12,371 nucleotides of DNA from an uncultured Lachnospiraceae bacterium (GTDB lineage: Bacteria; Bacillota; Clostridia; Lachnospirales; Lachnospiraceae), in the NCBI GenBank assembly GCA_946627575.1, contig CAMOVS010000013.1:1-12371 (forward strand). Reading direction: 5' to 3'. Under the pieces are notes generated by a model. The model worked only from the letters and a program-made list of their open reading frames with translations. It was not told where the DNA came from and made no database searches. Below are positions 1,372 through 5,097 of the stretch, in pieces. A program made the translations under genes and the position numbers. How positions within the stretch are numbered: position 1 is the first letter of the stretch; each line of letters opens with the position of its first letter.

Positions 1372-2250
1372 ATGATGGAGATAAAAGAGCCTAGAGGCAT
1401 GCTCTACCTGGTTGCGACCCCCATTGGAAATCTGGAGGATATGACCTTCCGGGCCGTCCGGATCCTGAAGGAGGCAGACCTGATCGCAGCAGAGGATACC
1501 CGCAACAGCATCCGTCTGCTCAATCACTTTAACATTGAAACCAGGATGACCAGCTACCACGAATACAATCGTTATGATAAGGCAGTATACCTGGTCAACC
1601 GGATGCTTCGGGGAGAAAAGGTAGCCCTTATCACCGATGCCGGAACTCCGGGGATATCCGATCCTGGAGAAGAGCTGGTTCGGCAGTGCATGGATGCCGG
1701 GATTCCGGTAACGGGTCTCCCGGGAGCATGTGCCTGCATCGATGCCCTGGCCCTTTCCGGCCAGTCGACTCGGCGGTTTGTGTTCGAAGCCTTTCTGCCC
1801 CATGATAAAAAAGAGAGGGAAAGGGTCCTGCAATCTTTGGAAAGGGAAACCCGGACGATCGTTCTCTATGAAGCGCCCCATAGACTGAAAAAGACGCTGG
1901 CAGAGCTGGAGGAAAGGCTGGGAGACCGGGATATTACCCTATGCAGAGAGCTGACCAAGAAATACGAGACAGTCGTGAAATCAAGCCTGTCCCAGCTTCG
2001 GACCTGGCATGAAGAGAATGAGCCCCGGGGAGAGTACGTGCTGGTCCTGGCCGGCAGAGATCCTGAAGACCTGGAGAAGGAAAGACAGGATCAATGGAAA
2101 GCCCTGTCCCTGGAAGATCATATGGATCGGTATCTCAAGGCCGGTATGAACCGAAAGGAAGCCATGAAAAAGGTTGCCGGGGATCGGGGAATGAAGAAAA
2201 GAGAAGTATATCAGGCCCTGCTGGACCAGAATGATAGAGAAGACGGATAG
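1372..2250 (+). CDS. rsmI: 16S rRNA (cytidine-1402 2'-O)-methyltransferase RsmI
   Basis: This enzyme of the tetrapyrrole-methylase fold uses SAM to 2'-O-methylate C1402 of 16S rRNA, in the P-site region of the small subunit. The 292-residue length is normal for the family. Diagnostic motifs are GMLYLVATPIGNLEDMT (about residues 9-25), AEDTR (40-44), the SAM-binding stretch LITDAGTPGISDPG (86-99) and GLPGACA (115-121). The last 50 or so residues hold the usual small helical C-terminal domain (RYLKAGMNRKEAMKKVAGDR region). The start has two consecutive ATGs at 1372 and 1375; GGAGG at 1361-1365 is well placed for either. alr follows 44 bases after the stop with no terminator between, so co-transcription is likely. 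Confidence 0.95.
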   Translation: MMEIKEPRGMLYLVATPIGNLEDMTFRAVRILKEADLIAAEDTRNSIRLLNHFNIETRMTSYHEYNRYDKAVYLVNRMLRGEKVALITDAGTPGISDPGEELVRQCMDAGIPVTGLPGACACIDALALSGQSTRRFVFEAFLPHDKKERERVLQSLERETRTIVLYEAPHRLKKTLAELEERLGDRDITLCRELTKKYETVVKSSLSQLRTWHEENEPRGEYVLVLAGRDPEDLEKERQDQWKALSLEDHMDRYLKAGMNRKEAMKKVAGDRGMKKREVYQALLDQNDREDG

Positions 2251-2294: not shown

Positions 2295-3485
2295 ATGAAT
2301 AATAGACTTGTAAAGGACAGCAAAGGGGAATACAGGAGGACCTATTGCCTGATAGATCTTGATGCCATCCGCCACAACCTGCTTCAGGTGCGGAGGATCA
2401 TCGGTGATGCCAAATTGCTGGCTGTGATTAAGGCGGACGGCTATGGACATGGGGCGTCGGAGATTGCCTGCGCCGTAGAGGATATAGCAGATTACTTTGC
2501 GGTGGCTACCATTGATGAAGGCATCCGGCTGCGCCGGAAGGGCGTCCGCCGGCCCATCATGATCCTGGGTTACAATTCCCCTTCTCTCTATGACGAGAAT
2601 CTTGCCTACGATATAGAACAAACCATATATTCTTTGGATACGGCCCGGGCTATGTCCAAGGCAGCGATGAAAGCAGGAAAACAGGCCCCCATTCATGTTG
2701 CCTTGGATACAGGGATGACCCGGATCGGCCTTCCGGCCAACGAAGAAGGCCTGAGAGATCTTATGGCCATGAAAGATCTGCCGGGTATTGAGATCAAAGG
2801 CCTCTTTACCCATCTGGCCTGCGCCGATATGGAAGACAAGGCCTACACATATGAGCAGATGGATCGTTATGATCATTTCCTCGAGATGCTTGAGGGCAAG
2901 GGGATCCGGATACCGCTCCGCCATATCTGCAACAGTGCCGGCATTATGGATTTCGATCACCATCGTTATGACATGGTCCGGTCCGGCATCATCACCTACG
3001 GTCTCTATCCGTCGGATGAAGTGATGAAGGAGAGACTGGACCTCAAACCGGCTCTGGCCTGGACAGCCCATGTGGTCCATGTTCAGGAACCGGAATTGAA
3101 CCGGGGGGTAAGCTACGGGGCGACCTACCTAGTAGATAAACCCATGAAGATTGCGACCATCTCCATCGGATATGCCGACGGTTATCCCAGACTCCTGTCC
3201 GGCAAAGGATGGGTCCTGATTCATGGGAGGAAGGCTCCTATACTGGGCCGGGTCTGCATGGACCAGATGATGGTCGATGTCACCGGCATCCCGGATGTGA
3301 AGGTGGAAGACCCGGTAACCCTAATCGGGAAAGACGGTGAGGAAGAGATCAGGGTGGAAGACCTGTCCGACCTGATCGGCACCATCAATTATGAATTCGT
3401 CTGTGATATCAGTCCCAGAGTTCCCAGATTGTACAAGGCGGCGGAATCAATAACAGAGGTCTATCCTGCAGATGTCCCTGACTGA
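2295..3485 (+). CDS. alr: Alanine racemase (PLP-dependent)
   Basis: Interconverts L- and D-alanine in the cytoplasm, supplying D-Ala for peptidoglycan precursors. With the ATG at 2295 the protein has 396 residues, usual for the family. The PLP lysine is K46 in AVIKADGYGHGA; the opposite-face catalytic tyrosine is Y274 in GVSYGATY. The (beta/alpha)8 barrel motifs HVALDTGMTRIG (134-145) and FTHLACAD (171-178), and the C-terminal CMDQMMVDVT (321-330), are also intact. An in-frame GTG at 2277 would add six residues. I prefer the ATG because AGAAG sits about 8 bases before it, whereas the purine run before the GTG is too close. The gene lies between rsmI and the C39-like gene and probably shares their transcript. 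Its C-terminal tail (about 381-396) is short and not conserved. Confidence 0.96.
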   Translation: MNNRLVKDSKGEYRRTYCLIDLDAIRHNLLQVRRIIGDAKLLAVIKADGYGHGASEIACAVEDIADYFAVATIDEGIRLRRKGVRRPIMILGYNSPSLYDENLAYDIEQTIYSLDTARAMSKAAMKAGKQAPIHVALDTGMTRIGLPANEEGLRDLMAMKDLPGIEIKGLFTHLACADMEDKAYTYEQMDRYDHFLEMLEGKGIRIPLRHICNSAGIMDFDHHRYDMVRSGIITYGLYPSDEVMKERLDLKPALAWTAHVVHVQEPELNRGVSYGATYLVDKPMKIATISIGYADGYPRLLSGKGWVLIHGRKAPILGRVCMDQMMVDVTGIPDVKVEDPVTLIGKDGEEEIRVEDLSDLIGTINYEFVCDISPRVPRLYKAAESITEVYPADVPD

Positions 3486-3543
3486 TTCCGGGAATCATCC
3501 GCTTGCTCTGGCAGCGAAAGAAACACCATCAGAAGGAAAAACT

Positions 3544-4158
3544 ATGAATAAGAAATATGAGATCGATTATTATAAGGTGGATGGAAGACCCGGGGGCAAC
3601 CAGGACTGGTGCAAGGACTTCTGGATGAACCTGGGCGGCTGCGCAGCCCTGGCAGCGGGAGATATGGCCATATGCCTGTCTAAGAATAAAGGGATGGAAT
3701 CCTGCTGTCCCCTGGATCCTGACCATATAAGCCGGGACGACTATAACAGCTATGCTATGATTCTCAAACCCTACATCCGTCCCCGTTTTAATGGTGTAAC
3801 CCGCCTGTCCATTTTTACCTACGGCTTCCGCCGCTATCTGGAAGACCGGGGATACGAACCGGAGTATGCCCTCTGTCCCGGAGGCAATTCTTATGAGGAA
3901 GCGGAGGGGTTTGTCAGGGATAGAATTGTGAACAACCTCCCTATCGCCTGCCTGATCCTGTCCCACAAAAATCCTGCCATGAAGGATCTCAACTGGCATT
4001 GGTTCTCCCTGACCGGCTACGAGGAGAAGGATGGGCGTTTTCATGTGTATTATCACACTTACGGGGAGAAGGTTTTGGTTGATTTCAGAGAACTCTGGGA
4101 TACCGGCTCCTGTATCAAAGGGGGGATGATCGCCCTGCAGGATGTCAAAAAAATATAA
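3544..4158 (+). CDS. Uncharacterised papain/C39-like protein
   Basis: This is a 204-residue protein without signal peptide or membrane segment. An upstream in-frame ATG at 3472 overlaps alr, but AGAAGGAAA lies just before the ATG at 3544, so I use that start. The layout suggests a C39-like cysteine peptidase fold: GGNQDW with Q20 as possible oxyanion-hole residue, a helix-capping GGCAALAAGD with C33 as possible nucleophile, and NWHWFSLTGYE with H152 followed by strands. An acidic third residue is not obvious; D180 is one candidate. I recall similar uncharacterised proteins in other Clostridia, but could not verify this. It follows alr by 58 bases and ends just before a strong terminator, so it is probably last in the rsmI-alr operon. 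Substrate and activity are unknown. The gene is near certain; the fold is inferred. Confidence 0.75.
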   Translation: MNKKYEIDYYKVDGRPGGNQDWCKDFWMNLGGCAALAAGDMAICLSKNKGMESCCPLDPDHISRDDYNSYAMILKPYIRPRFNGVTRLSIFTYGFRRYLEDRGYEPEYALCPGGNSYEEAEGFVRDRIVNNLPIACLILSHKNPAMKDLNWHWFSLTGYEEKDGRFHVYYHTYGEKVLVDFRELWDTGSCIKGGMIALQDVKKI

Positions 4159-4161
4159 GAA

Positions 4162-4186
4162 AAAAGAGCCCTGTCAGGGCTCTTTT
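4162..4186. terminator. Strong bidirectional intrinsic terminator
   Basis: AGAGCCCT (4165-4172) and AGGGCTCT (4176-4183) form a perfect 8-bp stem around a 3-base loop. An A-run lies on the left and TTTT on the right, so both strands carry a U-tract after the hairpin. It lies 3 bases after the stop of the C39-like gene (plus strand) and 13 bases after the stop of the 35-codon gene (minus strand). It can therefore end both convergent transcripts. Confidence 0.92.
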
Positions 4187-4199
4187 GCTTAAAGGGTAA

Positions 4200-4307
4200 T
4201 TACAAAAGGTATACCGGTAATTCAACACCAAAGGGATGATGAACGAATCCGATATGCTCGATGGAAATGTGCTCAATAGCGATTTTTGTTAAACCCATAT
4301 GCTTCAT
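4200..4307 (-). CDS. Small 35-residue protein or peptide, new mini-gene
   Basis: The minus-strand ORF starts with ATG at 4307-4305 and ends with TAA at 4202-4200. The peptide begins MKHMGLTKIAIEHISIEH and ends IGFVHHPFGVELPVYLL. I do not recognise the family. It holds two copies of IEHI five residues apart, five histidines, an alternating hydrophobic pattern suggesting beta structure, and no clear signal or membrane segment. Support for expression is strong: GGGAGGG (4321-4315) lies 7 bases before the ATG, a TTGTTT-17-TATAAT promoter lies about 40 bases upstream, and a perfect terminator follows the stop. The predicted transcript is only about 180 bases. It could be a regulatory or signalling peptide, a small protein, or a dual-function RNA; the sequence does not decide. 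Confidence 0.68.
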   Translation of the reverse strand: MKHMGLTKIAIEHISIEHIGFVHHPFGVELPVYLL

Positions 4308-4345
4308 GTTTCTTCCCTCCCGATATGATAGTATGATTTTTTACT

Positions 4346-4374
4346 ATTATAGCAAAGGATATTAAAAAAAACAA
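4346..4374 (-). promoter_or_regulatory. Promoter of the 35-codon gene
   Basis: Read on the minus strand, TTGTTT (4374-4369) is separated by exactly 17 bases from a perfect TATAAT (4351-4346). This is a housekeeping sigma-A/70-type promoter. Transcription should start near 4339, giving a leader of about 32 bases that contains the GGGAGGG ribosome site. The rest of the 4308-4461 gap to the Nudix gene shows no convincing plus-strand promoter. Confidence 0.8.
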
Positions 4375-4461
4375 GGGTGCGGCGGCAGACTCATGAGCGA
4401 ATCTTGAATGTTGTAATTTACACCGGGATTTTCGGTTTAGCTGAACCAGGGGAGGAAATGA

Positions 4462-5097
4462 ATGGAATACATCGACATCAGAGATGAGACGGGACAAAAG
4501 ACAGGTCTCGTGAAGGAAAGGGAAGAAGTTCATAGGGATGGGGATCTTCACGCTAGCAGCCATGTCTGGATCGTTGCAGCCGAAAGAGAGACAGGAACTG
4601 CCGGTTCAGATCAGGTGGAGCCGGCCCTTTGCTGCCCGGGGGAAACCGGGAAGCTAACATGCCGGATCCTCCTGCAGAAAAGGAGCATGAACAAGGATGC
4701 TTATCCCGGCTGTTATGACATTTCCTCGGCAGGCCATATCCCGGCTGGGGAGGATTACCTTCCCTCTGCCCTGAGAGAGCTATATGAAGAGCTTGGGATT
4801 CATGCAGGGCCTGAGGACCTGACGCCCATTGGGGCCTTCACCTATGAATTTTTACGGACATTTCATGGGAAGCCCTTTCATAACAGAGAGATCAGCCGGG
4901 TCTATCTATACCAGAAGCCGGTGAACCTTTCTGATCTGGTTCTCCAGGAAGAAGAGGTGGAGTCGGTTGCCTGGATGGATTTGTCAGAATGTGCCCGGAG
5001 AGTCCGGGCCGGGGATCCTCATTTTTGCGTCATGGAGGAAGAGCTGCAGATGATTGCGGACTATTTTGGGATCCCCCTTCTATCAGATGAGGGATGA
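4462..5097 (+). CDS. Nudix hydrolase
   Basis: The Nudix box is complete: G91-x5-E97-x7-R105-E106-L107-x-E109-E110-x-G112-I113, within GHIPAGEDYLPSALRELYEE. These enzymes hydrolyse nucleoside diphosphates linked to another group, with metal held by the box glutamates. The N-terminus (IDIRDETGQKTGLVKEREEVHRDGDLHAS, quoted in part as EYIDIRDETG and HRDGDLH) followed by a central beta strand resembles the branch that includes YfcD and IPP isomerase-like proteins. The substrate cannot be assigned. Residues about 41-66 form a long, low-complexity insertion between two core strands. The ATG at 4462 has GGGGAGG at 4449-4455; a second ATG at 4458 is out of frame. No plus-strand promoter was clear. Confidence 0.9.
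   Translation: MEYIDIRDETGQKTGLVKEREEVHRDGDLHASSHVWIVAAERETGTAGSDQVEPALCCPGETGKLTCRILLQKRSMNKDAYPGCYDISSAGHIPAGEDYLPSALRELYEELGIHAGPEDLTPIGAFTYEFLRTFHGKPFHNREISRVYLYQKPVNLSDLVLQEEEVESVAWMDLSECARRVRAGDPHFCVMEEELQMIADYFGIPLLSDEG

Follow-up and report, generated by a model that had tools for sequence, protein, structure and literature searches.

Genes as short as the one described here often escape annotation. Among the short peptides with described roles, PapR, SHP and ComS are pheromones processed at the C-terminus, and many small pheromones have their conserved part at the very C-terminus. In addition, CapP and CapH are a known pair of protease and repressor. The gene described here, which also encodes a peptide whose conserved part lies at the very C-terminus, was found in a stretch of 12,371 nucleotides from an uncultured Lachnospiraceae bacterium (GenBank assembly GCA_946627575.1, contig CAMOVS010000013.1), hereafter the window. 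It is a real, self-contained gene for a protein of 34 to 35 residues without a match to the families searched.

The gene and its product in the window

A first-pass annotation read this part of the window as a complete mini-gene for an unrecognized peptide, and direct reading of the sequence found all of the elements it named on the minus strand between positions 4374 and 4152 (Table 1). Besides the promoter these are the Shine-Dalgarno sequence, the open reading frame (ORF) and the hairpin. Its description of the elements as near consensus is too strong for the -35 hexamer, which lies 17 nt from TATAAT and is weak, and the promoter was not listed in a consensus scan of positions 4100 to 4520, in which the lone promoter-like match lay elsewhere (1 found versus 1.0 expected). 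The same scan listed the terminator (1 found versus 0.2 expected from shuffles), which is followed by a T-rich tail, TTCTTATATT, and which, sitting between two convergent genes, may serve both. These promoter, Shine-Dalgarno and terminator elements do not exclude chance by themselves; conservation in the genomes compared does. The window contains no tRNA and no match to Rfam 15 at the gathering score.

Table 1. Features of the window at and around the peptide gene
Feature	Position	Strand	Remarks
TPR protein, 265 aa	425-1222	+	Pfam scan; 3 kb from the peptide gene
228-aa protein	3472..4158	+	Convergent with the peptide gene; found in 12 of 24 genus genomes
Hairpin AAAAGAGCCCTGACAGGGCTCTTTT	4186-4162	-	11 bp, loop of 3; intrinsic terminator
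35-codon ORF (stop included)	4200..4307	-	ATG at 4307, TAA at 4202-4200
Shine-Dalgarno GGGAGGG	4321-4315	-	7 nt before ATG
Extended -10 TGCTATAAT	4346..4354	-	TATAAT 4351-4346 plus TG 4354-4353, perfect
-35-like hexamer TTGTTT	4374-4369	-	3 of 6 positions match TTGACA
NUDIX hydrolase	4462..5097	+	Divergent neighbour; Pfam scan
Metallopeptidase-like protein, 275 aa	5235..6062	-	Conserved HExTH and W.E.HA.R.GY (orthologs L140-L158)

The window peptide is MKHMGLTKIAIEHISIEHIGFVHHPFGVELPVYLL, in which the five histidines and the doubled IEHI reported earlier were borne out by direct reading. Hydrophobic pentads of the form [TS]-[IL]-E-H-I follow one another along its N-terminal half, and its C-terminal half is a near-invariant tail, HHGFGVxLPxYLL, which ends exactly at the C-terminus. 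In the 18 sequences aligned from the genus, residues E12, H23, H24, L30, P31, L34 and L35 never change, and the strongest constraint, as judged from this alignment, is in the tail. In six peptides examined, the hydrophobic residues show a periodicity of about five, the net charge ranges from -3 to +1 (histidine not counted), and the highest mean hydropathy over 15 residues is 1.30, which is below the usual need of a membrane span. No export signal, strongly hydrophobic N-terminus or membrane-like stretch was found in these six peptides, and the protein is probably cytosolic because it lacks any signal-like or membrane-spanning stretch. AlphaFold2 gave no confident fold for the peptide alone (pLDDT, 56.8; pTM, 0.17; alignment of 13 rows). 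The low score is compatible with folding on a partner, and the small alignment rather than disorder may also account for it.

The gene is short and stands alone behind a strong-looking promoter, and its product carries hydrophobic pentads, features that a small toxin, an antimicrobial peptide or a RiPP precursor would also have. The charge range and the absence of a membrane-like stretch in the six peptides argue against such a product, as does the absence of a modification enzyme among the nine window neighbours by Pfam, two of which had no match. The peptide also had no match in phage or plasmid records, and a role of this kind is very unlikely.

Conservation and distribution of the peptide

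With the 35-residue peptide as the query, a search of 61 genomes (E <= 1) gave matches in 24, of which 18 were strong (E 1.3e-4 or better) and all belonged to the window's own genus, the window's genome included. The other six were weak (E 0.05 to 0.96), and two of them contain a stop. A profile of 13 sequences recovered the peptide in the identical 18 of 24 genus genomes, and among the genus genomes with a completeness of 90% or more and a contamination of 5% or less it is present in 10 of 11. When one genome per species (84,980 species) was scanned with a degenerate DNA pattern of the tail, 17 records were obtained. By sequence, 15 of them fit genus members, including Anaerobutyricum hallii DSM 3353, Candidatus Anaerobutyricum avicola and Eubacterium sp. 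An11; a form as divergent as the one in G015 would escape the pattern. The names borne by these records suggest that the genus is Anaerobutyricum.

None of the six negative genus genomes is a demonstrated loss, because rsmI, together with the metallopeptidase-like gene, was likewise not found in four of them (G008, G016, G020 and G022), the contig of G012 ends, on the relevant side, roughly 1 kb past rsmI, and a contig of G014 starts at a hairpin of the type that follows the peptide elsewhere in the genus. These negatives may be assembly gaps. In an rsmI tree of 20 genomes the genus was partly resolved, with 3 of 17 inner branches well supported.

The first-pass annotation had singled out a broken frame in relatives, or a lack of codon bias, as the outcomes telling against a coding gene, and the comparison was run over the 18 orthologs of the genus. 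None of them contains a stop, and the frame is intact in all 18. In pairwise Nei-Gojobori counts (153 pairs), the median pS was 0.65 and the median pN was 0.13, with pN below pS in 152 pairs; the pairs are not independent, since the 18 rows represent 13 distinct proteins and G013 and G017 have identical DNA over the compared codons. Averaged by codon position, heterozygosity was 0.162 for first, 0.156 for second and 0.447 for third positions, so that third positions are the most variable, almost threefold above the others. The intact frame, the excess of pS over pN and the codon-position bias together indicate that the reading frame is under purifying selection at the protein level across the genus, which excludes a chance ORF. 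The interpretation of the locus as RNA only was rejected.

The remaining 2 of the 17 tail-pattern records (L049 and L057) encode a 31-residue peptide, M[KR]RLG[CF]G[KR]MVFVGIAGFEHHGFGVELPAYLL, and both belong to one second genus, in which 2 of 3 genomes examined carry the peptide and the third gave no match. Each of the two genes is preceded by a perfect TTGACA-17-TATAAT and has AGGAGG ahead of its ATG. The gene lies directly upstream of sigG (named by sequence), and it also looks independent because a hairpin, read by eye, separates it from sigG. The tail HHGFGVELPxYLL is common to the two genera, with H, H, L, P, L and L as the invariant columns across both, and the front is shorter and different in the second genus. 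In the sigG leader of these two loci (L057, positions 1831-1885, plus strand; L049, positions 4786-4732, minus strand), an inverted repeat, TAAATCATTACC / GGTAATGATTTA, covers the Shine-Dalgarno sequence. This repeat possibly resembles the leader hairpin of sigG that has been studied in Bacillus subtilis (PMC5942855).

The second genus bears on the suggestion that the peptide is a histidine-rich metal binder for the storage or transfer of zinc, copper or nickel. The five histidines of the window copy and the invariant HH pair (positions 23 and 24) are in line with it. Histidine content as such is not conserved, however: Arg takes the place of His13 in 3 of the 18 sequences and of His18 in 1 of 18, the second-genus peptides have only two histidines, the HH pair, and the window copy has no cysteine. 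Metal handling is thus very unlikely. Of the roles guessed in the first-pass annotation, metal binding is accordingly weakened and a small RNA alone is rejected, while signalling peptide and small regulator are kept as candidate roles.

Beyond these two genera, a first profile (A1) searched against 299 family genomes (E <= 0.01) matched only its own genome and, weakly, one other (G100; E 0.0027), in which the match contains a stop. A looser profile (A3; 397 genomes, E <= 0.3) gave matches in 43 genomes, two of them genus members (G000 and G005). Among the 44 A3 rows from outside the genus, 22 were read in frame, and none of these proved to be a short ORF with LPx[YH]LL at its end; the other 22 (L082, L084, L087, L089, L092, L094 and 16 without loci) are counted as chance by assumption, and on that assumption all 44 are chance matches. 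The peptide is, to judge by the genomes sampled, dispensable for most relatives because one of the three second-genus genomes gave no match and because it is nearly absent from the 298 other family genomes.

The peptide matched no family in Pfam, NCBIfam, PHROG or PADLOC, and its profile gave one match against the PDB (E 0.68), nothing at a meaningful level. In the literature searched, no paper contained any of six peptide fragments, and among papers on small proteins of Anaerobutyricum or of the gut none named the peptide in its title or in the opening of its abstract. Phage or plasmid cargo was ruled out: the pattern was absent from the viral contigs scanned, and tblastn at E <= 1 matched nothing in the phage or plasmid records. 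The initial call of a complete mini-gene for an unrecognized peptide has thus been upheld, with the frame kept in relatives and no match to known families, and the comparisons characterize a well-supported new orphan small-protein family that is conserved and of very narrow distribution.

Genomic neighbourhood and constraint on the DNA

Loci were drawn for 17 of the 18 genus carriers (all except G013). The usual order is the metallopeptidase-like gene, the divergent NUDIX hydrolase and the peptide, followed by the convergent 228-aa protein, alr and rsmI, and it is largely kept in the genus, with extra or missing genes in several species. The 228-aa protein had no match in Pfam, NCBIfam or PHROG; by impression only, it recalls a cysteine-peptidase-like fold. 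In 15 of the 17 loci the metallopeptidase-like gene is found upstream of the peptide, no more than about 3 kb away. In the other two (G004 and G006) it is on another contig, with other genes upstream of the peptide. Its product had no Pfam match above the cut-off, and at E <= 10 two sub-threshold matches were of metallopeptidase type (a phage metallopeptidase family and the ATLF domain). The AlphaFold2 model of this protein has a pLDDT of 86.5. A Foldseek search of the model against the PDB gave no match at E <= 0.001, the plausible ones being small metallopeptidases at E 1 or worse (probability, 0.5 to 0.8), and a PDB sequence search gave one match (E 0.36). G017 has a second copy of the gene on another contig (C235; L141) that is 95% identical to that of the window and is possibly a contaminant from an organism related to the window's species.

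An HTH_3 (XRE-type) regulator of 106 aa follows the peptide gene on the same strand in 10 of the 18 carriers (L112-L117, L119-L121 and L009) and also at the G014 contig edge (L180:81-398), where the copy is 76 to 99% identical to the others; it was not found in the window or the 7 other carriers within the stretch fetched around the gene. A leader peptide or attenuator of neighbouring genes was rejected as an explanation for the window, where the next gene is convergent. A same-strand gene after the terminator, as an attenuator would have, is present as this regulator in the 10 carriers, and none was seen in the other 8 within the fetched stretch.

The regulator is also relevant to the possibility that the peptide is a secreted or re-imported signal, from which a C-terminal piece (about ELPVYLL or longer) would be released and sensed by a receptor, perhaps the regulator itself. 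The position of the conserved part and the presence of the regulator in many carriers and at the G014 edge are consistent with such a signal. It is nevertheless unlikely, as the peptide has no export signal or strongly hydrophobic N-terminus, the tail is near-invariant instead of strain-variable, eight carriers, the window among them, have no regulator in the stretch fetched, and the Pfam matches of the regulator are limited to its HTH region. The window's TPR protein lies at a distance and has no relative in the other loci drawn. The same features tell against an RRNPP-type signalling peptide: no hydrophobic export signal, an adjacent regulator that matches HTH models only, and a TPR protein that is remote and unshared.

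Alternatively, the peptide may be an output or cofactor of a protease-repressor module, in which the metallopeptidase-like protein and the HTH_3 regulator would behave like the CapP/CapH pair and would control it or be controlled by it. The metallopeptidase-like gene and the peptide gene occur in the identical 18 of 24 genus genomes, and G004 and G006 keep both genes although these lie on different contigs; outside the genus the protein was found in 2 of 298 family genomes sampled, as 27 to 28% relatives. Such co-occurrence is weak evidence, however, since the two belong to the core of a single locus and assembly gaps may account for the negatives, and the metallopeptidase-like protein is absent from the second-genus peptide carriers (0 of 2 genomes). 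Among the PADLOC models, capH is matched by the regulator along its length (E 1.7e-9), but this is the second best of 15 PADLOC matches (the best being HTH_VI, 5.8e-11) and may be due to a shared HTH alone, and the metallopeptidase-like protein has no PADLOC match. A module of this kind is rather unlikely.

The promoter is conserved in the orthologs. The extended -10 matches at 8 of 8 positions in 13 of 18 orthologs (window included), at 7 of 8 in four and at 6 of 8 in one. The -35 region reads CT[AT]T[TCA]CAAA, by eye, in 15 of 18; the window, G002 and G015 lack it. The combination of this box with the extended -10 was matched 13 times at peptide promoters and nowhere else in 455 kb of loci. 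The box would fit the protease-repressor module, except that it is present in carriers without a nearby regulator and absent in the window. The conserved promoter suggests that the gene is independently transcribed. Under strict search criteria, a terminator hairpin was detected in 12 of 18 orthologs. The hairpin AGAGTTTG..CAAACTCT lies 3' of the stop in 11 loci and was seen only twice more in 457 kb, once at the G014 contig edge; in the window species and in six further ones the hairpin is different.

Three codons near the 3' end, those of Leu30 (0.00), Leu34 (0.11) and Leu35 (0.25), show low synonymous variation compared with the median pS of 0.65 over the 18 orthologs, in which synonymous change elsewhere is close to saturation. 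Leu30 is TTA in 18 of 18, and TTA makes up 18% of the leucine codons in neighbouring genes; part of this bias may be codon preference or shared descent, because Leu6 is likewise mostly TTA. The low synonymous variation near the 3' end hints at an additional role at the nucleotide level. Such a role would be expected if the transcript were a dual-function RNA that also base-pairs, or folds on itself to limit translation, and the short transcript with its own terminator, the recurrent hairpin after the stop and several folds in which the 3' codons pair with the Shine-Dalgarno sequence are in keeping with this idea. In contrast, this pairing did not exceed that of synonymous resamples (1,000 per species; mean z -0.36; lowest fraction among the 18, 0.082), and sequestration of the Shine-Dalgarno sequence by the last codons was not supported and does not account for the low synonymous variation. 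The hairpin also differs in seven species, and no Rfam family is present in the window, which leaves a dual-function RNA highly improbable.

Proposed role and comparison with known systems

The explanation preferred here, with a probability of about one half, is that the product of the gene is a small cytosolic protein whose invariant C-terminal tail serves to bind a partner. The peptide would lack a stable fold of its own, the tail would dock onto a specific cellular protein with the pentad part packed alongside, and the docking would adjust the activity or stability of the bound protein. The tail is taken as the putative recognition segment because the strongest constraint sits there. The low synonymous variation near the 3' end goes beyond this explanation. 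The metallopeptidase-like neighbour is a candidate partner, yet the two second-genus carriers are without it.

A broader proposal treats the peptides as a two-genus family with the fixed tail HHGFGVxLPxYLL as its functional unit. In Anaerobutyricum, the dedicated promoter box, the near genus-specific metallopeptidase and, often, the HTH_3 repressor would then join the peptide in a peptide-protease-repressor circuit. This proposal is quite improbable; if true, the circuit would be of a kind not described.

The fixed tail offers a defined bait with which to search for the partner, which makes a function directly testable. The gene is under high constraint across Anaerobutyricum, a butyrate-producing genus of the gut. 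One of its species, A. soehngenii, is under test in people as a beneficial microbe (PMC12087665). The unannotated proteins of a gut microbiome survey of small ORFs (PMC13376575) are likewise short, and Anaerobutyricum is not named in the main text of that article. Even if its function is modest, the peptide gene is a small gene shown to be real by comparison and absent from the family libraries searched here.

Like PapR, SHP and ComS, the peptide comes from a short ORF and has a conserved hydrophobic C-terminus with a proline. It differs from them in having no export signal and no conserved adjacent TPR receptor, and its tail is near-invariant between species. SR1P of Bacillus subtilis works by binding a larger protein, a mode of action that is the proposed parallel with the peptide. 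What the two have in common is that a very short protein is made from a small gene (PMC8152036).
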